Shown: positions 2,464 through 19,731 of the stretch, piece after piece
Position numbering within the stretch: position 1 is the first letter of the stretch
Layout: each line of letters starts with the position of its first letter
Notes under the pieces: model-generated
Seen by the model: the letters and a program-made list of their open reading frames with translations, nothing else
Told to the model about the DNA's origin: nothing
Databases searched by the model: none
Source: a virus
IMG/VR virus record: IMGVR_UViG_3300046485_000173
Coordinates: 1 to 21,816 of that record
Direction: 5' to 3' (one strand)
Length of the DNA stretch: 21,816 nt
Position numbers and translations under genes: made by a program

Positions 2464-3042
2464 TCACAAAATCTCAGCTTCTAATAAGTGAAGTTGCAAA
2501 ACAATTACCATCGCATATGAAATACTATGGCTTTTCTTGAAGGAAAAGCCATTATCATCTTTCATATATAATAATACATGACACGCTTCTCTTTCTGCTA
2601 TGTAGAAAGGCAGAAGTTCCTGCTTTCCTGGACGAATAAGGGCTAATACATCTGCTACTTCTTCAATAGATCTTGGTCTTAATTTTTTTAAAAGATCAGC
2701 ATGTTTGCCAACTTGAAATAGTTTTTCTACATTTCGTTCATCTAGCAATAAATCCCAATTTGGTTCTATCTTTAAAAGTTCTTCAATTTCTTCTCGTGAT
2801 TGAAAGTGTTGATATGTAGTAAGATGTAAAAAGTCTAACTTGAAATAGCCAAGTTCTTCAGCATTTTCGAATGGAATAGCAGATAATCCAGTTACTAGAT
2901 CTTTAGCAATAGCCTGTGGAAATACACCACAGGGATGAGGACCAAGTTTTTCGTTTTTGACTATACTCGCTTTAATCCAATTTGGAAATAACTTTAAAGG
3001 ATCTAGATTTGGTGGAGTATCTATGTCTACATCGAAACTCAT
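2464..3042 (-). CDS. DnaE-like DNA polymerase, C-terminal half (split gene)
   Basis: This 192-residue protein reads like the C-terminal palm and later core of bacterial DNA polymerase III alpha (DnaE, family C), strongly shortened. In order: SFDVDID (residues 2-8) matches the DFDVDF motif with two catalytic aspartates. GPHPCGV matches GKHAGGV. GYFKLDFLHLTT matches VKFDFLGLRT with the third aspartate. KLFQVGKHADLLKKLRP matches VFQLESRGMKDLIKRLQP. ALIRPGK matches ALFRPGP, and FKKSHSISYAMV matches FNKSHSAAYALV. Long segments between these blocks are deleted. The N-terminal counterpart is the gene at 14192-14722. Its ATG overlaps the zinc-finger gene as ATGA, so it is translated as its own gene. 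Activity is not certain. Confidence 0.75.
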   Translation of the reverse strand: MSFDVDIDTPPNLDPLKLFPNWIKASIVKNEKLGPHPCGVFPQAIAKDLVTGLSAIPFENAEELGYFKLDFLHLTTYQHFQSREEIEELLKIEPNWDLLLDERNVEKLFQVGKHADLLKKLRPRSIEEVADVLALIRPGKQELLPFYIAEREACHVLLYMKDDNGFSFKKSHSISYAMVIVLQLHLLEAEIL

Positions 3043-7586: not shown

Positions 7587-9046
7587 TATGACCGTGCTCT
7601 TGATTTAACTTCATCCCATGATTGACGATTAGTTCTATATCCATCTTCGAACCATTTTTTCCAGCCCGGTTGATCTTCCCACATAATAAAATCACTACCA
7701 TATTCATGTAGATTATCAAAGATTTCTAATTTACCATCAACTTCTTTACAACGAGCCAAACCAGTCAAAGATTTTTTACCACTGTCTGTTTTTGGATCTT
7801 TTAACAAACTTTGCCAGTGCCCGTTTTGCAATAAATTAGCAATTGCTTTAACTGAAAAGCTGAAGTCATCACGACGACCATCGTGAGTAACACCAGAACC
7901 CATACCCATACAGAAATTATCTAATGAAAAACCTGCATCAATCCAACCCATGACAACACTTTCGAATGTATCAATTGTAATGCCATCGCCTTGGATAACA
8001 CCAACTGACGGATGCAATACTTCGCGACCTTCTGCATTGACAGTTGATCCAAACTTTTCAGCCAGGATACGACCAATCTCGCCGGGCTTAGTTGTTGGAT
8101 CACCGCTATCTGGTCTACATACTAAACGACCACCTGAATTGATAACTCGATCTTTTAGTTTTTCACCAATGTATTCACGAACAAAGCGTACATCGTCAAA
8201 AGTATCAATTACACCTGATACAAATGGAATGCCAATACCTTGTTCTTTTGTACGCTTAACAGCGGCTTCCAGTCTTTCAACAATCATTACCGCTGCACTA
8301 TAATCGTCTTTGTTGGCACAATCAGAATTAGATGTCATTGTGTAGTGTTCTGATGCATCAATTGATGAAGTCGTTGGTTTACCAGTACCATATAGTTTTT
8401 TGACATAACGATTTACTTGTAAGCAATCCGAACCATCGAATAACATAGCATGAGCAATACCGGCGAGTACAGCAGCTTCTGGAGCATCAGCACCACGATC
8501 GCCAAAATTATTGAGCATATAACTGATATCAGAAACAGTACCAGTTTCTTTAGCATAGTGATCAAGAGTTGTTCTAATCTTACGACAGATAGAAGCGACA
8601 GTAGTCATTTTCCAAAGAATGCATTGGATAAATGTTTCCACATCACCGCACAACCAAGCAAAACCGGGGCGAGTGTTTATCCAACCCATCATTGGAGTTT
8701 GAACTGGTATAATTCTACCTTCTTCAACTCCCATAATTCTTAATGGCAGCTTACCATTATCTTCACGAGCAATTCGTTCCCAACCTTTCCGATTGAATTC
8801 GTAGCCCTGTTCATTGATTTCAATTTCGGCTTCATCAATCATTTCTTCAGTAATTCGAACTGAAGCCAGATATGATGCGACCATAGATTGACCGGTTGCG
8901 ACAATTTCAGTTGCAAAAGATGCCATTTTTCTAGGTACTGCAACTGTATACGTATAATCTACATTATACGGAATTTGATTATGATGACAAGTTTTGTAAC
9001 CATCAGCCATCAAAATAAAGTTCTGTTTTAATAAATGTTCGATCAT
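7586..9046 (-). CDS. nadV: Nicotinamide phosphoribosyltransferase
   Basis: A 486-residue enzyme of the NAMPT/NadV family, making nicotinamide mononucleotide from nicotinamide and PRPP in the cytoplasm. Visible signatures in order: ADGYKTCHHNQIP near residue 14 (the family's TDGYKxSH), GDRGADAPEAA with the phosphate-binding Arg, FDGSD with the substrate Asp, SSIDASEHYTMTS with the catalytic-loop His, and RLVCRPDSGDP with the Arg-Asp pair that binds ribose phosphate. Length is normal for the family. The ATG follows AAGGGGATTCCTC, a leader shared with nadM. T4-like vibriophages carry comparable genes. With NadM it completes a two-step route from nicotinamide to NAD. Confidence 0.93.
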   Translation of the reverse strand: MIEHLLKQNFILMADGYKTCHHNQIPYNVDYTYTVAVPRKMASFATEIVATGQSMVASYLASVRITEEMIDEAEIEINEQGYEFNRKGWERIAREDNGKLPLRIMGVEEGRIIPVQTPMMGWINTRPGFAWLCGDVETFIQCILWKMTTVASICRKIRTTLDHYAKETGTVSDISYMLNNFGDRGADAPEAAVLAGIAHAMLFDGSDCLQVNRYVKKLYGTGKPTTSSIDASEHYTMTSNSDCANKDDYSAAVMIVERLEAAVKRTKEQGIGIPFVSGVIDTFDDVRFVREYIGEKLKDRVINSGGRLVCRPDSGDPTTKPGEIGRILAEKFGSTVNAEGREVLHPSVGVIQGDGITIDTFESVVMGWIDAGFSLDNFCMGMGSGVTHDGRRDDFSFSVKAIANLLQNGHWQSLLKDPKTDSGKKSLTGLARCKEVDGKLEIFDNLHEYGSDFIMWEDQPGWKKWFEDGYRTNRQSWDEVKSRARS

Positions 9047-9060
9047 GAGGAATCCCCTTA
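9047..9060 (-). promoter_or_regulatory. Ribosome-binding leader shared with nadM
   Basis: On the minus strand TAAGGGGATTCCT (9060-9048) directly precedes the nadV start. The same 13 bases precede the nadM start at 12843-12831. The AGG and CCT parts can pair as a small stem around GGATT, which could partly mask the ribosome site. Confidence 0.6.
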
Positions 9061-9103
9061 TGTTTTAAGTTAAAAGATCCAGGTCTATCCCAAATCTTGA
9101 TAA

Positions 9104-9132
9104 ATTATACAATGCTTTTTCAATCTTGTACA
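9104..9132 (-). promoter_or_regulatory. Candidate promoter for nadV
   Basis: On the minus strand TGTACA (9132-9127) and a perfect TATAAT (9109-9104) are separated by 17 bp, about 58 bp before the nadV ATG. The -35 is a weak match, so the call rests mainly on the -10. Confidence 0.4.
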
Positions 9133-9138
9133 TTCTTT

Positions 9139-9606
9139 TTATTTGCTAAGTAAATCATAGCCGTCATCTAAATATTTCTTTTTCCAATAAGATTCTCGTT
9201 TAGCTTTTACTAATTGAGAATCTTCCCATTCTAAAAATTGTGTAACCATCCAGATTTTTTTATCTGGATTTCCTTGAAGACATTGAATAAGCATTCTAGT
9301 AAATGGACATCTATCAGGATATCCATTTCTAAATTGCTGTTTATACAAATTTATTCTGCTTTGAATTGATTTACATCTGCCAACTTTTTTTCCTGTTGAT
9401 TTTCCTAATGGATCGTCAGGATTATCTAAGAGATGTAAACAATACACATATTGTTTATTTGGATTTGAAATGATAGCACCTCGTGGGGTTTTATGATTTT
9501 CAAATCCAATGCATTTTGTTGTAATTTGATGAATTAATGATTTACATTCAAATAATTCGGTTCGTTTTAAGAGTTCATTTATTGTTGGAAGTTTTTGTAA
9601 TTTCAA
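9139..9606 (-). CDS. Possible GIY-YIG/T5orf172-like nuclease-fold protein
   Basis: A 155-residue basic protein. The central block QYVYCLHLLDNPDD, then KKVGRCKSIQSRINLYKQQF, resembles the YVYxL...KVGxTxxxxxRL core of GIY-YIG-related T5orf172 domains. A later Glu-containing helix (LEWEDSQLVKAKRESYWKKKY) could supply the catalytic Glu. The open frame has no early ATG; TTG at 9604-9606 is the most upstream start and has a weak ribosome site. It overlaps the gene before it by 32 bases. The fold assignment is uncertain, and it could instead be a general DNA-binding protein. Confidence 0.45.
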   Translation of the reverse strand: MKLQKLPTINELLKRTELFECKSLIHQITTKCIGFENHKTPRGAIISNPNKQYVYCLHLLDNPDDPLGKSTGKKVGRCKSIQSRINLYKQQFRNGYPDRCPFTRMLIQCLQGNPDKKIWMVTQFLEWEDSQLVKAKRESYWKKKYLDDGYDLLSK

Positions 9607-9799
9607 TTATTTGTCCATCAAGATGTTTATGTTTCTCATACCAAACATCCGCGTTTATTTCTTTTTGTATTCGTTCTCTAGCATCATCCTCATTTTGGTA
9701 CTCCCAAATAGTAATCCAGAATAGAAACTGTTTATACTGTACAAAGTACAAAATAGTTCCACATGGTTTTACTTTAATTTTAATTCTATAAGTTATCAT
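9575..9799 (-). CDS. Hypothetical protein, 74 aa
   Basis: I place the start at ATG 9797-9799 because GAGGAA lies just before it; an ATG five codons upstream lacks such a site. The protein has a strand-rich first half (RIKIKVKPCGTILYFVQYKQFLFW written in pieces: RIKIKVKPCG, TILYFVQYKQ, FLFW) and a helical charged second half (NEDDARERIQKEINADVWYE). It may be a small adaptor-like alpha/beta domain. Its 3' end overlaps the next gene. Not recognised. Confidence 0.45.
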   Translation of the reverse strand: MITYRIKIKVKPCGTILYFVQYKQFLFWITIWEYQNEDDARERIQKEINADVWYEKHKHLDGQIIEITKTSNNK

Positions 9800-9864
9800 C
9801 TTTTTATTCCTCATCTTCTAAAAATGTTGTTAATATTTTGTTCTAAAGTGTTCTTTAAAATCTG

Positions 9865-10137
9865 TTACCATAAATCATTCGTTAAAAATATTACACTAAC
9901 AATTACAATTATATTAGTAACAGCGAATACCATTCGACCTTGTGGTCCATAATGGTCTCTAACCATTTGTGGCCAATATAATTCAAAATCTCGTCTTAAT
10001 CTATCCCATTCATATTGAGATACAAAAAACATAGTAACAAACCCAAAAGTAAATATCATCATTCCTGTTTCTAACAAAAATAAAGAAATCATTATTTTTG
10101 TAAATCCAAATAATAATGTAACTAATTCTGGATTCAT
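9865..10137 (-). CDS. Small two-helix membrane protein, 90 aa
   Basis: Hydrophobic segments at about residues 4-40 (probably one or two passes) and 69-87 flank a charged, aromatic loop (SQYEWDRLRRDFELYWPQMVRDHYG). The start overlaps the stop of the deoxyribosyltransferase-like gene as ATGA. A holin or exclusion role is conceivable, but the gene sits among nucleotide genes rather than lysis genes. Not recognised. Confidence 0.55.
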   Translation of the reverse strand: MNPELVTLLFGFTKIMISLFLLETGMMIFTFGFVTMFFVSQYEWDRLRRDFELYWPQMVRDHYGPQGRMVFAVTNIIVIVSVIFLTNDLW

Positions 10138-10625
10138 AAATGTTTCCTGTGTTCTATAAAGTTTTCTAAGTAAATTAAAAGTCTATCAAAACTTTCAATC
10201 ATTTTGATATCATACCTATCACAAATCATTTCAATATTACCCTTCCTCCAAAATCCATCTGGACAACAAACTACTGTTTGTTGTCCTAGTCCGGCAACAA
10301 GTCCAATTTCCATTAGTGTAATTGGCGATTTAGTATTAGGATCAATATAAAAAACAACTAAATCACTCTGAGATATACCAGACAATTCCCAATTAACTTG
10401 ATTCCGGAAGTTCTTATCTTCACATGTCTGTTTAATATTGACATCCCAGTCATCTCTTCTTGGGTTCAAGAAAGTAACATTCTTATTTTCAAATGTTCTA
10501 ACAACTCTTTCTTGCCATCTTTCAGCAGTATCCATTTCAATTGATCCACCTAAGAAAATCATTGGACCATGTATTTTATTAAATTCGGACGGTGGTAAAG
10601 CTTGCAATGGTTGTAAATGTAACAT
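10134..10625 (-). CDS. Nucleoside 2-deoxyribosyltransferase-like protein
   Basis: A 163-residue protein with the nucleoside 2-deoxyribosyltransferase-like pattern. IFLGGSIEMDTAERWQ (about residues 23-38) is the N-terminal glycine motif, NPRRDDWD follows, then QVNWELSGISQSDLVVFYID and SPITLMEIGL, whose Glu matches the catalytic position. A C-terminal strand VVCCPDGFW follows. The family cleaves or exchanges N-glycosidic bonds of (deoxy)nucleosides or nucleotides. Phage members of this type are common. Here it sits between nadM and nadV, so NAD-related or nucleoside salvage roles are both possible. Its start is seven bases downstream of the radical SAM fragment gene. Confidence 0.7.
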   Translation of the reverse strand: MLHLQPLQALPPSEFNKIHGPMIFLGGSIEMDTAERWQERVVRTFENKNVTFLNPRRDDWDVNIKQTCEDKNFRNQVNWELSGISQSDLVVFYIDPNTKSPITLMEIGLVAGLGQQTVVCCPDGFWRKGNIEMICDRYDIKMIESFDRLLIYLENFIEHRKHL

Positions 10626-14191: not shown

Positions 14192-14722
14192 CTATTCATG
14201 AAAAAATTCACTATAATGAATATTATATTTCAGCGGATCTACACAATGCAAGCCTAATAAGAACAACAAATAACTTGCGCAACTTGAACCCCTACCTACT
14301 CCCCAAACTATATTATTTTTCTTAAATGTATCTACAACAAAGATAATAGTTCTTAAACCCATTTCGAATTTAAATTTTATTACTTGTTCTAATTCGATTC
14401 CAACGCGTTCATATGCTGCTGAAGTCGCATTTTTCTTATAAAGTAATTGAGCAAAATATTCAATAACATTTAATTGTTGATATTCTTCAGGAATTAGCCA
14501 AGTATAGTCCAAATCAATAGAATCTGATTCACTGAACACTTTCAGTTCAACATCCGAACGCAAATTGAATTGACCTATATCCTCATTTATTTCAGTTACC
14601 TGAATACACTCAGGTGAAAGTCCTGCTAAAAATAAATCAATAACAGATTCTGGTTCTACAACAGAAATACCATTTGCTAATAGTAATCTATCTTCAAGAA
14701 CTGTGACTAAAGCTGGATGCAT
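14192..14722 (-). CDS. DnaE-like DNA polymerase, N-terminal half (split gene)
   Basis: A 176-residue protein whose second half matches the start of the DnaE palm. YERVGIELEQVIKFKFEMG matches the LDYELQVINQMGFPGYF region, followed by FKKNNIVWGVGRGSSCAS, the GRGSxAGS motif that binds the incoming nucleotide phosphate, then LLGLHCVDPLKYNIHYSEFF, the DPLxxxLLFERF motif. It stops (TAG) right after FFHE, exactly where DnaE would continue into SMPDFDVDF. That next block starts the gene at 2464-3042. Only about three residues are missing at the joint. The usual PHP domain is absent. The ATG overlaps the dCMP deaminase gene by 16 bases. An HNH-type gene follows. Confidence 0.75.
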   Translation of the reverse strand: MHPALVTVLEDRLLLANGISVVEPESVIDLFLAGLSPECIQVTEINEDIGQFNLRSDVELKVFSESDSIDLDYTWLIPEEYQQLNVIEYFAQLLYKKNATSAAYERVGIELEQVIKFKFEMGLRTIIFVVDTFKKNNIVWGVGRGSSCASYLLFLLGLHCVDPLKYNIHYSEFFHE

Positions 14723-15171
14723 TCAATTCCACATTCTGCTAAAAGTTCAAGACCTTCTGGTTCTCTATCATACTTTTCAAGATAAAAAACAGTTTTAATG
14801 CCAGAGGTAATTATAGCTTTTGCACATGAAAGACACGGAGTATGTGAAACTGCCATTTCGCAACCGTCGATCGCAATACCAAGTTTTGCTGCAGTTGCAA
14901 TAGCTGAAATTTCAGCATGACCTTCATTTCGTAATGAAAATTTACGATGGGTTTCAACAGCAATTTCAGATCCGGATTTCATTAGAAATTGTTCTGCTAC
15001 ATCAAAAACTTCATTACAATGAGGTTGACCAGGCATACTACCATTATATCCGCTACAAAGTATTCTTCCTTTACTGACAATAATAGCACCAACTTGAACC
15101 CTTGAACAAGTACTTAGTTTAGTTGTTGCTATTAAAACGTCTTTATAGTATTGATGATATTTGTTACTCAT
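14707..15171 (-). CDS. cd: dCMP deaminase
   Basis: A 154-residue zinc enzyme converting dCMP to dUMP for thymidylate synthesis. The catalytic HAEISAI motif (His-Ala-Glu, near residue 88) and the second zinc site TPCLSCAK (near 111-118) are both present. STCSRVQVGAIIV and GYNGSMPG are the usual substrate-binding blocks. Length is close to that of T4 Cd. The start has TGAGGAA as ribosome site and follows two bases after the zinc-protein gene. With the TS-fold enzyme at 19011 it belongs to nucleotide supply for replication. The gene symbol follows T4. Confidence 0.9.
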   Translation of the reverse strand: MSNKYHQYYKDVLIATTKLSTCSRVQVGAIIVSKGRILCSGYNGSMPGQPHCNEVFDVAEQFLMKSGSEIAVETHRKFSLRNEGHAEISAIATAAKLGIAIDGCEMAVSHTPCLSCAKAIITSGIKTVFYLEKYDREPEGLELLAECGIECIQL

Positions 15172-15173
15172 TT

Positions 15174-16031
15174 TTATTCCTCAATTTTTAAGCCTTTAGA
15201 TGATACTGAAATATGTTTGTTGTTTTCAGATATCCATTTAATTGCGGCTGATAAAGTAAACCAAGTTCCATCTTCACAAAGTTTATCCATTCTTGAAATC
15301 AGTTTTTCTGAACCAGTGCTAAAATGAAATTCTTGACGAGAATGAGTTTTTATTGAAATTTTTGTAATCTCACCAGCTCCAAATTTATTATCAACTACTT
15401 CTTGACGAATGCTTACGATTTTACCTTTTACTGAAGCTGTTTCTCCAACTCTGTATTCTTTATAAAGGGATTTTTCTACATCTTGTAGACATTGTTGTTT
15501 ATAGCTTCTTAAAACTGCATTCACTTGGTTTTCTGACAATTTTCCAAATACTTTCCATTGCGATTTAATGCTTGTGATAAATGAACCAGTTCCTTCGTTA
15601 AGAGCATCAATGAAATCTTCACGATCTGAATCTGAAAGAAATGCTATGCTTTCGATTCTTTTTTCTTCACGACCTTTTTCTAAAAGAACAAGAGCTTCAG
15701 CTTTTTTTCTCAATTGTTCAGCATAACGGGCAACGACTGTCATTAAACGTTTTTCAAAAACTTTATGCTTTGCAGCCATTAAAGCTTCAACACTTTCAAC
15801 TGAAGGAAGATTTAAACCTGTATGACATTTACCTTTACAAGCTGTACAGGTACGATTCATTTTTCTACCAGTTCCACAGCAACGTTTGCATACTAGAACT
15901 TTAGCAACTGAACAGTATGTCATAAAGCAAGCATTTACTGATAGTTCATCAAAATCTTCAGGTTGAAGAAGTTGACTTGCTAATAGTACAGCTAAATCTT
16001 TTAAAGTTGCAAAATATTCATCGTTTAACAT
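15174..16031 (-). CDS. DnaJ-type zinc-binding phage protein, 285 aa
   Basis: A first gene after early promoter B. Two CxxC pairs, CKRCCGTGRK (about residues 48-57) and CTACKGKC (about 62-69), form the DnaJ-type CxxCxGxG cluster, though without a J-domain. A helical region follows. The stretch SFITSIKSQWKVFGKLSENQVNAVLR (in parts SFITSIKSQW and KLSENQVNAVLR) is a motif seen in phage helicase- or recombination-associated proteins. A C-terminal beta-rich part, ASVKGKIVSIRQEV onward, reads like an OB-type fold. It may bind single-stranded DNA or RNA; the exact role is unknown. GAGGAGA precedes the ATG. It is followed after two bases by dCMP deaminase. Confidence 0.6.
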   Translation of the reverse strand: MLNDEYFATLKDLAVLLASQLLQPEDFDELSVNACFMTYCSVAKVLVCKRCCGTGRKMNRTCTACKGKCHTGLNLPSVESVEALMAAKHKVFEKRLMTVVARYAEQLRKKAEALVLLEKGREEKRIESIAFLSDSDREDFIDALNEGTGSFITSIKSQWKVFGKLSENQVNAVLRSYKQQCLQDVEKSLYKEYRVGETASVKGKIVSIRQEVVDNKFGAGEITKISIKTHSRQEFHFSTGSEKLISRMDKLCEDGTWFTLSAAIKWISENNKHISVSSKGLKIEE

Positions 16032-16097: not shown

Positions 16098-16181
16098 TTG
16101 ATAACTAGTTATCATTCCTCTAAAGTAACTTATTTGTTTCAATAGATTTAACTTTCAAGTTGACCAAAATTAATACCTTTT

Positions 16182-16190
16182 TAATAAATA
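16182..16190 (+). promoter_or_regulatory. Possible late promoter of the plus-strand island
   Basis: TAATAAATA lies 53 bp before the likely ATG at 16244 and diverges from early promoter B. It is one of several TAATAAAT(A) boxes here. The rest of the 210-bp divergent region (16032-16243) shows no other feature. Confidence 0.4.
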
Positions 16191-16243
16191 CGTTTGTATT
16201 CATATTCTTATATCAACCTTTATCAAACCTTTACAATAAAACT

Positions 16244-16645
16244 ATGATTAGAAAAACGGGATCACAGAATCAAAAGGCCGATCAAATTTTAATAGATTGG
16301 GATGGTATTGAGCGAAGATTGCAAGAACGTCGCAATGCAGAATTATTAGAACTTGATCAACATCAAAACAATGAAAAGCAGAGTTTTATCAGTCGTTATG
16401 GTTCAATTCTAGCAACTGTAATTTCAATACTTGCTACTGTAATTACATTTGGAGCTTCTTTATACAATAGAGTTTCAAATTTAGAAGTTAAACAGAATAC
16501 AGCAGTAGAGAAAATAGAAGAAGTAAAACGAGATATGACTGATATTAAAAACGTTTTGAAGGAACAAGATAAATCACAGAAATCGCTAGATGGACATATT
16601 TCAAGCATTGAAGAAACAATGATGCAACTTTACAGGAAAAAATAA
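16244..16645 (+). CDS. Coiled-coil protein with one or two membrane helices, 133 aa
   Basis: The frame extends upstream to a TTG, but the ATG at 16244 (MIRKTGSQNQK) is preferred, since the extension would add an unrelated hydrophobic leader overlapping the promoter. After a charged N-terminus (GIERRLQERRNAELLELD) a hydrophobic segment ISRYGSILATVISILATVIT lies at about residues 46-65, long enough for a helix. A C-terminal coiled coil follows (VEKIEEVKRDMTDIKNVLKE). No ribosome site is visible. The layout, a charged N-terminus, one membrane span and a coiled coil, fits a phage membrane or lysis accessory protein, but no family is certain. Confidence 0.6.
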   Translation: MIRKTGSQNQKADQILIDWDGIERRLQERRNAELLELDQHQNNEKQSFISRYGSILATVISILATVITFGASLYNRVSNLEVKQNTAVEKIEEVKRDMTDIKNVLKEQDKSQKSLDGHISSIEETMMQLYRKK

Positions 16646-16662
16646 GTTAATATTGCCATTTC

Positions 16663-17100
16663 ATGGATAGAATAATATATTTCATATTTTGTGCCTTGCT
16701 TTTTTTTAGCAATTCTATACGTGCGACAGAACCTGTCGTAATTGCTGAAGCGTCACTGCCAGAAACTAAATTGCAACGTTCTGATTTAGTTTATATTTTT
16801 ACTAGACAGCGAATGTTTTGGGCAGATGGACATAAAATTAAAGTATTTGTGAAACCATCAAATTCAATTGAAAATAAATTATTTGCTATTAATGTTTTGA
16901 ATTTGTCTCCTTATAAGTATAGATCTTTATTAGATTCGGTGATTTACGCAGGATTAAATACTCCAGCAGATGAAGTTTCATCTGATGAAGAAATGTTGCT
17001 TAAGATTTCTTCAACTCCATATTCAATTGGCTATTTGAATTACCATACTGTTATTTCAAATGCATATGCTCCAGACATTATGATAATTCATCATGAATAA
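16663..17100 (+). CDS. Secreted phosphate-binding-like (PBP-like) protein
   Basis: A 145-residue protein with a clear signal peptide (MDRIIYFIFCALLFFSNSIRA, cleaved after about residue 21). The mature part matches the small PBP-like/PstS-related domain of Gram-negative bacteria. LQRSDLVYIFTRQRMFWADG matches the xDxxxIFxGKxxxWxDG pattern. KIKVFVKPSNS, LNLSPYKYRSLLDSVIYAG and the ISSTPYSIGYL block, which corresponds to the VxxxPGAIGYL strand, follow. The protein is too short for a full PstS. It is probably periplasmic and may bind an anion or peptide. Its stop overlaps the start of the outer-membrane protein by eight bases, so the two are made together. No ribosome site is obvious. Confidence 0.7.
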   Translation: MDRIIYFIFCALLFFSNSIRATEPVVIAEASLPETKLQRSDLVYIFTRQRMFWADGHKIKVFVKPSNSIENKLFAINVLNLSPYKYRSLLDSVIYAGLNTPADEVSSDEEMLLKISSTPYSIGYLNYHTVISNAYAPDIMIIHHE

Positions 17101-18220
17101 GCTAATTTTCTTAATTTTGTTTTTTCTATTAGCATTTAAAGTAGAAGCATATACTTTTACAAATGGTGATCTCAAATTAGATGCTAATGGATATATTGGC
17201 TATAAGTTTATTGGAGCAACTGTAAAACATTCTGTTTTGCCATCTGAACCAGAACTTGGTTTAGCACTATCTGCTCAATATGGAAATCATCTTTCATTTT
17301 ATACACAATTTGCATATGATGATCAAATTGATAGAGCTCTTGTTTACAGTTTTGCAGCATATGATATTCAATTCGAAAATGAAATAAATTTAACATTGAA
17401 AGCTGGAAAACTTAGACATCCTTATGGTTTGTATAATGCAGCTCGTATTAATCCAAGAACAAGACCCGGAATAATTGTTCCGCAAGCAATTTATTGGGAT
17501 TCACTTAATCACCTATTAACATCGGGTGTTGGTGCCGGTTTTGATGTTAAATGGAGAAATGTTGAATTAGGTTATGAAATGGATAATCCAGGTACTGGCA
17601 ATCCAAAAGATGAAGCTTTAGTTTGGTCTGGTGGATTATTAAAAGAAACAAATACCTCATTTGGATCTCACCAATCAGCTTATGTAAAGTATAATTTTTC
17701 TAGTATTCCTGCAACATTTAAATCTTCTTGGATGAGAATTAACTTAGGAAACAAAACTGCTCCAATAGCAAGTTATTTGTTTCCTCAAATTACTAACAAA
17801 GATAATATAGCAAATATGTTTATAAATTCTGTAGAATTTAATCCATTTGATAAATTTACTTTTACTGGTGAATCACTATTTGTAAAAACTCCAATTAACT
17901 TCAATAATGATTTTACAAAATGGTCTAATGGCTATTCGTTTACGGGCAAATATGAATTGACTGACAAAATCAATGTTTACGCAAACTATAACTATTATCA
18001 ATCACAACATATTCCATTTACTCCTGAACAAAAATGGCAATATCAAAATACTACTGATGTCAGCATTGGAATAAATTATCACGAAAATAAATGGCAGGTT
18101 GGAGCAGAAATCCACAAAATTCAAGGTGGAAGATGGGCAAATCCTAATGACTATTTTAGCGATCCAAATAGCTTCAAGAATTGGTACATGGTTGGGGTTA
18201 ACTTCGCGTACTTTTTTTAA
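17093..18220 (+). CDS. Outer-membrane beta-barrel (porin-like) protein
   Basis: A 375-residue protein with an N-terminal signal peptide (MNKLIFLILFFLLAFKVEA). Many alternating-hydrophobicity strands follow, such as LDANGYIGYKF, LSFYTQFAYDD and INVYANYNYYQ. It ends in NWYMVGVNFAYFF: a terminal Phe after an aromatic strand is the BAM-recognition signature of outer-membrane proteins. KLRHPYGLYNAAR is a periplasmic or loop block like those in bacterial barrels found beside PBP-like genes. It overlaps the PBP-like gene, so they probably form an envelope unit. Phage porins are unusual. Possible roles are solute uptake, pore formation or receptor masking. The final four bases overlap the convergent 18217 gene. 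Confidence 0.75.
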   Translation: MNKLIFLILFFLLAFKVEAYTFTNGDLKLDANGYIGYKFIGATVKHSVLPSEPELGLALSAQYGNHLSFYTQFAYDDQIDRALVYSFAAYDIQFENEINLTLKAGKLRHPYGLYNAARINPRTRPGIIVPQAIYWDSLNHLLTSGVGAGFDVKWRNVELGYEMDNPGTGNPKDEALVWSGGLLKETNTSFGSHQSAYVKYNFSSIPATFKSSWMRINLGNKTAPIASYLFPQITNKDNIANMFINSVEFNPFDKFTFTGESLFVKTPINFNNDFTKWSNGYSFTGKYELTDKINVYANYNYYQSQHIPFTPEQKWQYQNTTDVSIGINYHENKWQVGAEIHKIQGGRWANPNDYFSDPNSFKNWYMVGVNFAYFF

Positions 18221-19010: not shown

Positions 19011-19550
19011 TTAACTAGGTATCAGTATATGAGCTGAACTTGCATTTATATGCAATATTCCTAATGATAACTTATCTTCTCCATAAGACTTAACCATTCT
19101 CGAAACAAATCCAGAAATCAAACATAGATCATAAGCAGCAAAAGTTGAAAGCTCCCATGATCTAAAATTTACAACTACATGTAATTTTCTATCTCTAATC
19201 AGAAATTGAATTGAAGTCAAACATGTTGGAGTTGAATTATAATTTGAACCGAAATAAACGATTGCTCTACGAGTATTTGAATCTCGTAACAATTCATCTA
19301 AACAAGCATAAAAGCTTTTATGCCAATAGTAAGTGTATCCATTATATCGTTCTGTTCTATGATTGAACAAAACAGCTTGTTGTTCTTTGATTTGATCTTC
19401 AGTCCATTCAGTCAATTTCAGCACTTCTAGCGCAATTTGAGTATTAAAGTTAATAGTCTCTTTATACTCTTTCTCGTCAATCACTATAGAACGATATAGT
19501 TCTAAATGGAACTGTCTAATTAAGCCTTTAGTAATAGCTGATTCTTGCAT
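19011..19550 (-). CDS. Minimal thymidylate synthase/dCMP hydroxymethylase-fold protein
   Basis: The start is at ATG 19548-19550 because GGAGAT lies about seven bases before it. The 179-residue protein matches the ThyA core. TRRAIVYFG matches the phosphate-binding SRRIIV. PTCLTSIQF matches the APCHAFFQF block with the catalytic Cys. FRSWELSTFAAYDL aligns with YQRSCDVFLGLPFNI, and LGILHINASSAHIL matches the VGDFVWTGGDTHLY end. The Asn of FNI, which selects dUMP in thymidylate synthase, appears as Asp (YDL), as in T4 dCMP hydroxymethylase, which suggests a cytosine nucleotide substrate. Full-length enzymes are about 250-265 residues. It may act in base modification or thymidylate supply. Confidence 0.6.
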   Translation of the reverse strand: MQESAITKGLIRQFHLELYRSIVIDEKEYKETINFNTQIALEVLKLTEWTEDQIKEQQAVLFNHRTERYNGYTYYWHKSFYACLDELLRDSNTRRAIVYFGSNYNSTPTCLTSIQFLIRDRKLHVVVNFRSWELSTFAAYDLCLISGFVSRMVKSYGEDKLSLGILHINASSAHILIPS

Positions 19551-19731
19551 AATGTATATCTCCAACTTCTCGGTATTTTGCCATTCTCAAATTCGATGCT
19601 CTAATTCTACCAACTTTTGACATTGATACGTGACGAGAACCAATTTCAAATTTAGAATTCTGTAAATAACCAAAATACCCATTTGATCTATTCTTTCCGC
19701 CAGAACATCGTAAGCTTAAATATGAATTCAT
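19528..19731 (-). CDS. Small basic protein, 67 aa
   Basis: A Gly/Arg/Ser-rich small protein (starts MNSYLSLRCSGGKNR) whose start overlaps the 20018-19728 gene by ATGA and which overlaps the TS-fold gene by 23 bases. Its composition, with about nine Arg and many Tyr and Ser, hints at RNA or DNA binding. No family recognised. Overlaps support translation. Confidence 0.5.
   Translation of the reverse strand: MNSYLSLRCSGGKNRSNGYFGYLQNSKFEIGSRHVSMSKVGRIRASNLRMAKYREVGDIHYARISYY

Follow-up and report, generated by a model that had tools for sequence, protein, structure and literature searches.

Porin-fold barrel and single-lobe PstS-type protein acquired from bacteria by T4-superfamily jumbo phages, with a possible role in envelope signalling

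A three-gene cassette in jumbo phage contigs

The window (the whole 21,816-base stretch that was analysed, an IMG/VR virus contig) carried three plus-strand ORFs at 16244-18220, encoding a coiled-coil membrane protein (cc-TM), a PBP-like protein and an outer-membrane barrel (Table 1). The neighbouring gene-like ORFs, and the remaining genes of the contig, were on the minus strand, as the initial annotation had described. Its report of two signal peptides and an 8-base overlap was confirmed by hydropathy and ORF coordinates; the signal-peptide-like N-termini were on the PBP-like protein and the barrel, whose ORFs share the 8 bases. The minus-strand genes (clamp loader, split DNA polymerase pieces, dCMP deaminase, NAMPT and NMN-adenylyltransferase/Nudix) were assigned by sequence to a T4-superfamily jumbo phage, and the closest named phages by NAMPT were 350-kb jumbo phages with <50% identity. 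The DNA polymerase was seemingly split into small ORFs 11 kb apart (2464-3042 and 14192-14722, both minus strand), and these pieces matched PHROGs 11778 and 11127, each almost at full length. Two other minus-strand genes encode an RlaP-like nucleotidyltransferase (383-1369; Pfam RlaP 5e-7, PHROG 388) and a 184-aa protein (19011-19565) whose match to phage thymidylate synthase (PHROG 160) covered only about 100 residues near the C-terminal end and which is possibly a split or relic ThyA.

Table 1. Positions of the cassette genes and upstream features in the window
Feature	Position	Strand	Description
cc-TM	16244-16645	+	ORF, 133 aa, ATG start; upstream TTG at 16160 possible as start
PBP-like protein	16663-17100	+	ORF, 145 aa
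Outer-membrane barrel	17093-18220	+	ORF, 375 aa
T4-late-promoter-like box AATAAATAC	16183..16191	+	61 nt upstream of the cc-TM ATG
Perfect palindrome TGATAACTAGTTATCA	16099..16114	none	Between divergent transcription units

A search for homologues of the pair in phages and in host genomes had been suggested; homologues were found at many bacterial loci, described below, and in five other IMG/VR contigs, in which all three genes recurred (six including the window). Two of these contigs came from a NAMPT scan of IMG/VR and three more from barrel scans; initial single-sequence scans of viral contigs confirmed nothing. Recurrence of all three genes in five other viral contigs is beyond chance. The PBP-like and barrel genes were together in all six contigs, which are fragments of differing length, and the order cc-TM, PBP-like protein, barrel was kept in every one. 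cc-TM was directly upstream of the pair in five, and three small genes intervened in L098. The cassette ran opposite to its neighbours in four contigs (the window, G001, G002 and G379) and in the same direction in L013 and L098 (contigs G377 and G378), showing that the cassette is not defined by opposite orientation. A late gene lying among early genes of a T4-type genome would be expected to look like this. No match to the PBP-like protein or the barrel was obtained by direct tblastn in 50,697 named phage records, and cc-TM had no match at E<0.01 in named phages. A phage-encoded porin-PBP module was not described in the literature searched, whose coverage mostly excluded subscription journals.

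The segment marked in the initial annotation began at 16182, on a T4-late-like box (TAATAAATAC), and the late-promoter-like box that it placed upstream of the genes proved to be conserved. In all five phage contigs with an intergenic start, a NATAAATA[C/T] box preceded cc-TM at a distance of 36-66 nt; it was rare in the rest of the contigs, and was not found on the opposite strand upstream of cc-TM in the five contigs tested. The shuffle P was 0.03-0.08 per contig, with a product of 9e-7 over the five contigs for an exact pattern that was fixed after viewing the sequences. The box suggests late, not early, expression of the cassette. No Pho box was found in the window, and a simple sigma-70 scan gave no more matches than shuffled sequence. 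The palindrome was rejected as a conserved operator since the corresponding sequence in the other phages did not contain it; it may be incidental.

Other genes were recorded in the additional contigs. G379 is from a T4-type phage carrying UvsX, SSB, helicases and primase. Three small proteins with signal-peptide-like starts adjoined its cassette (L099, 4050-5430, minus strand), and 838- and 413-aa proteins with signal-like N-termini were encoded at 7939-10455 and 14194-15435 (-) of L151, so this phage is predicted to have further exported proteins besides the cassette. Immediately upstream of the cassette in G377, the sequence was read as tellurite-resistance-type genes, a TerC-like membrane protein and a TerD-like protein (L013, 5322-7023). 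A homologue of 5-hmdU DNA kinase 2 (L098, 11205-12011; Pfam HMUD2, 1e-15) suggests modified DNA in that phage.

Predicted properties of the three proteins

All protein structures used here were single-chain predictions. The AlphaFold model of the barrel had 16 strands (pLDDT 80.6), and Foldseek matched it to OmpE36 (E 5e-13), OmpC (7e-13) and OprP (1.6e-12). A signal-peptide-like N-terminus was seen by hydropathy on the barrel in all six phages, and identity of the window barrel to its five phage homologues was 35-52%. The signal peptide, the 16-strand barrel and the C-terminal aromatic residue of general/OprP-type porins were all present in the window protein, which is predicted to be an exported outer-membrane porin-fold protein. 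The terminal-Phe signature noted earlier was seen in the window barrel (...AYFF); of the five complete phage barrels, four end in Phe and that of L013 ends in Phe-Asp.

The PBP-like protein also had a signal-peptide-like N-terminus by hydropathy in all six phages, and pairwise identity of the window protein to its five phage homologues was 30-53%; in a second comparison, four were 47-54% identical to it and the fifth 31%. Its model (pLDDT 91.9) showed a PstS-type fold, with Z 10-15 to many PstS chains over lobe II alone; the match to lobe II of 4q8r had a VIA Z of 15.4 and an rmsd of 1.7 over residues 77-188, and E. coli PstS was aligned over residues 77-210. The mature protein of about 125 aa covers only such stretches of PstS, showing that lobe I is missing and, because of this, that the two-lobe ligand cleft is absent in the monomer. 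The R-x3-SGT phosphate motif of lobe II was absent: REASSGT of Vibrio was aligned to KPSNSIE in the window protein and to PDDxPLH in the bacterial relatives. The models thus describe the PBP-like protein as a putative exported lobe II of a PstS-type protein.

cc-TM was present in all six phage contigs, with 19-44% identity to the window protein. The window protein had an N-terminal WDGIERR, one transmembrane segment at about residues 55-73 by hydropathy, and a C-terminal coiled coil that is probably in the periplasm; the WDGxERR motif was doubled in three of the six phages. Weak PHROG matches were to holin and Rz-like spanin (1e-5 to 0.1, best named 1e-5) and were of the generic transmembrane/coiled-coil kind. 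Two other assignments were rejected. As a bacterial family, cc-TM gave weak, partly frame-broken matches alone in 369 Gammaproteobacteria, with internal stop codons in two of four; as a piece of the bacterial sensor described below, it had an hhalign probability of 1%. An Arg-rich RxxxR stretch followed WDGxERR in four of the six phages (window 16244-16340 and the same region in L011, L012 and L099). It recalls the RxxxR c-di-GMP motif of PilZ, a likeness that may be due to chance.

Bacterial relatives and origin of the pair

When 84,980 genomes were searched with the barrel, 281 relatives were obtained. Among the best 80 of these 281, a PBP gene adjoined the barrel in 79, and a sensor-family homologue, defined as a match to a profile made from 64 such downstream proteins, was located <=1 kb from the pair in 78. 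The two loci with no nearby sensor were at a contig end (L093) or had a second barrel ahead of the sensor (L074). All four downstream proteins that were domain-scanned contained dCache_3, PAS and GGDEF, and three contained EAL. An earlier genome scan with PBP alignment A1 confirmed nothing. When a phage-only PBP profile was used as an independent seed over 369 Gammaproteobacteria, 29 genomes were recovered at E<1e-12, and bacterial PBP-like homologues scored E 1e-18 to 1e-25. The barrel was adjacent at 29 of the 30 PBP-seeded loci, and at the thirtieth (L133) the PBP gene was directly next to the sensor. Both scans agree with the earlier statement that pairs of a PBP-like protein and a barrel occur in Gram-negative bacteria. 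Sensor position varied in the larger flanks (downstream, upstream in L144, convergent in L136), and cache/histidine-kinase systems took the sensor's place in L138 and L139. A membrane sensor is the regular companion of the pair in bacteria, in most cases one whose output is c-di-GMP. This varying gene order with constant linkage argues for a functional bond among the bacterial PBP, barrel and sensor. The cluster was found in Halomonadaceae, Nitrosomonadaceae, Methylophilaceae, Cellvibrionaceae and Nitrospirota. No description of a PBP_like_2 - porin - dCache/PAS/GGDEF-EAL cluster was found in the papers searched, and the bacterial trio of single-lobe PBP, porin and c-di-GMP sensor is widespread and apparently undescribed.

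When 112 pairs were concatenated for a tree, those of the six phages grouped together with a support of 100 and a branch length of 2.47, which fits a single ancient capture and prolonged evolution in phages since then. Because of flags for long branches and unusual composition, the tree does not allow the closest bacterial donor to be named. A T4-superfamily jumbo phage lineage has acquired the bacterial pair and keeps it behind a phage-specific cc-TM. No membrane sensor gene was present beside the phage pair when both flanks were read in the window, L008, L013, L098 and L099. A diguanylate cyclase with an intact RxxDxxxRxGGEEF (active and inhibition site) was encoded outside the cassette in two phage contigs. 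In G379 it is a REC-GGDEF protein, whose gene is separated from the cassette by about 6 kb; in G377 it is a PAS-GGDEF protein, at a distance of about 19 kb. The window contig had no diguanylate cyclase gene, and no EAL or HATPase_c (histidine-kinase) genes were found in the six phage contigs. The REC-GGDEF query matched just 126 of 50,697 named phage records, and many of these are fragments that are short or lack annotation; given fragmentary phage contigs of varied length, we claim no formal enrichment from two of six against this count.

Possible functions and known systems

Beyond the anatomy, relatives, origin, linkage and promoter-like box described above, we infer a function for the cassette in signalling, with a probability of roughly 45%: it may be an envelope-sensing module that was captured from bacteria and is expressed late, and whose porin and periplasmic adaptor alter envelope or c-di-GMP signalling. 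In bacteria, by analogy with NspS-MbaA, a membrane sensor would have an input arm made up of the porin in the outer membrane and the PBP lobe in the periplasm. During phage infection, the T4-late-like promoter would drive late synthesis of all three proteins, which would be exported to the host envelope, where the porin would let in or sense a small solute, or report the state of the outer membrane, and the PBP lobe would pass the signal to an inner-membrane partner. This partner could be the host's cognate dCache GGDEF-EAL sensor, engaged (as by an agonist) or decoyed by the phage pair, or it could be the phage cc-TM, oriented N-in/C-out and replacing the sensor. As a result, infected cells would differ in their c-di-GMP level, in the state of their envelope or in when they lyse. 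However, co-location of genes is no proof of physical coupling, the cyclases are outside the cassette and in two of the six contigs, and cc-TM has no detected sequence relation to the sensor. A more specific proposal, in which jumbo phages coupled the captured input arm to their own coiled-coil cc-TM, together with phage diguanylate cyclases in some, is doubtful; if it is true, the infecting phage would read the extracellular or envelope state and then set c-di-GMP or lysis timing. The cassette is a conserved envelope module that is carried by phages yet unmatched in named ones, and it makes phage steering of host c-di-GMP, or sensing of the outside of the cell, testable.

The initial annotation had suggested import of phosphate or another limiting nutrient, and this was not borne out. 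A porin and PBP that increase the intake of phosphate or some other anion while the phage replicates, a role that has been proposed for pstS of cyanophages, would be in keeping with the PstS-type fold of lobe II, with the resemblance of the barrel to general porins and OprP, and with a Pfam Porin_O_P match in one bacterial relative; cyanophages do carry pstS (PMC10976474). However, the missing lobe leaves the monomer with no two-lobe cleft, the SGT motif is absent, no Pho box was found in the window, the promoter box is of late type, and no ABC transporter genes were noticed adjoining the pair in the phage contigs, which are fragments. The bacterial relatives are beside sensor enzymes, not an ABC transporter. 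We regard nutrient uptake as quite improbable, and an envelope-signalling role is likelier than phosphate feeding because the two bacterial relatives are nearly always beside a c-di-GMP sensor. Labels of 'phosphate ABC transporter substrate-binding protein' on the small PBP-like family probably misassign its function.

A change of the host surface was also considered, in which a host porin that acts as a phage receptor would, late in infection, be masked or supplanted by the porin of the phage, so that superinfecting phages are excluded. The 16-strand general porin fold near OmpC and the late-type box would suit this, and the phage PA-2 lc porin offers a precedent; it is nevertheless unlikely, since the strict keeping of the PBP lobe and cc-TM would be left unexplained and late expression is an odd timing for exclusion. 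About as unlikely is a role in lysis or its timing, in which cc-TM would act like a holin or i-spanin and have the PBP lobe in the periplasm and the porin in the outer membrane as its partners or sensors. The single N-in/C-out transmembrane segment, coiled coil and holin and spanin matches of cc-TM, the late-type box, and the position of the L098 genes after a tail-fibre-type region and next to a small two-TM gene point this way; the matches are weak and generic, however, no lysis gene was confidently identified, and the bacterial relatives are signalling operons. That the barrel or cc-TM is a structural part of the virion is scarcely credible: the late-type box and the L098 genes following tail-type genes speak for it, but two of the three proteins have signal peptides and there is homology to membrane porins.

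The cassette can be compared with four known systems. The PA-2 lc porin (NmpC) is, like the window barrel, a phage-encoded porin of the 16-strand type; however, PA-2 is lambdoid, not T4-type, and its porin has no periplasmic partner or transmembrane protein. Cyanophage PstS (7xg7, 7xg8) is likewise phage-encoded with a PstS-type fold, and the PBP-like protein aligned to its lobe II with Z about 11.6, but it has both lobes and about 300 residues, compared with one lobe in the window protein. The bacterial cluster has the homologous PBP lobe and barrel adjacent, on the same strand, in the same order and usually overlapping; the phage pair is about 20-35% identical to it, is on a separate deep branch, and has cc-TM upstream instead of an adjacent sensor. 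In NspS-MbaA of Vibrio cholerae and Sinorhizobium, a GGDEF-EAL receptor is controlled by a periplasmic binding protein (PMC8967002, PMC9993111). NspS binds polyamine and no porin is reported; as a works-like analogy, however, it resembles the bacterial cluster in joining a periplasmic binding protein to a membrane c-di-GMP enzyme.
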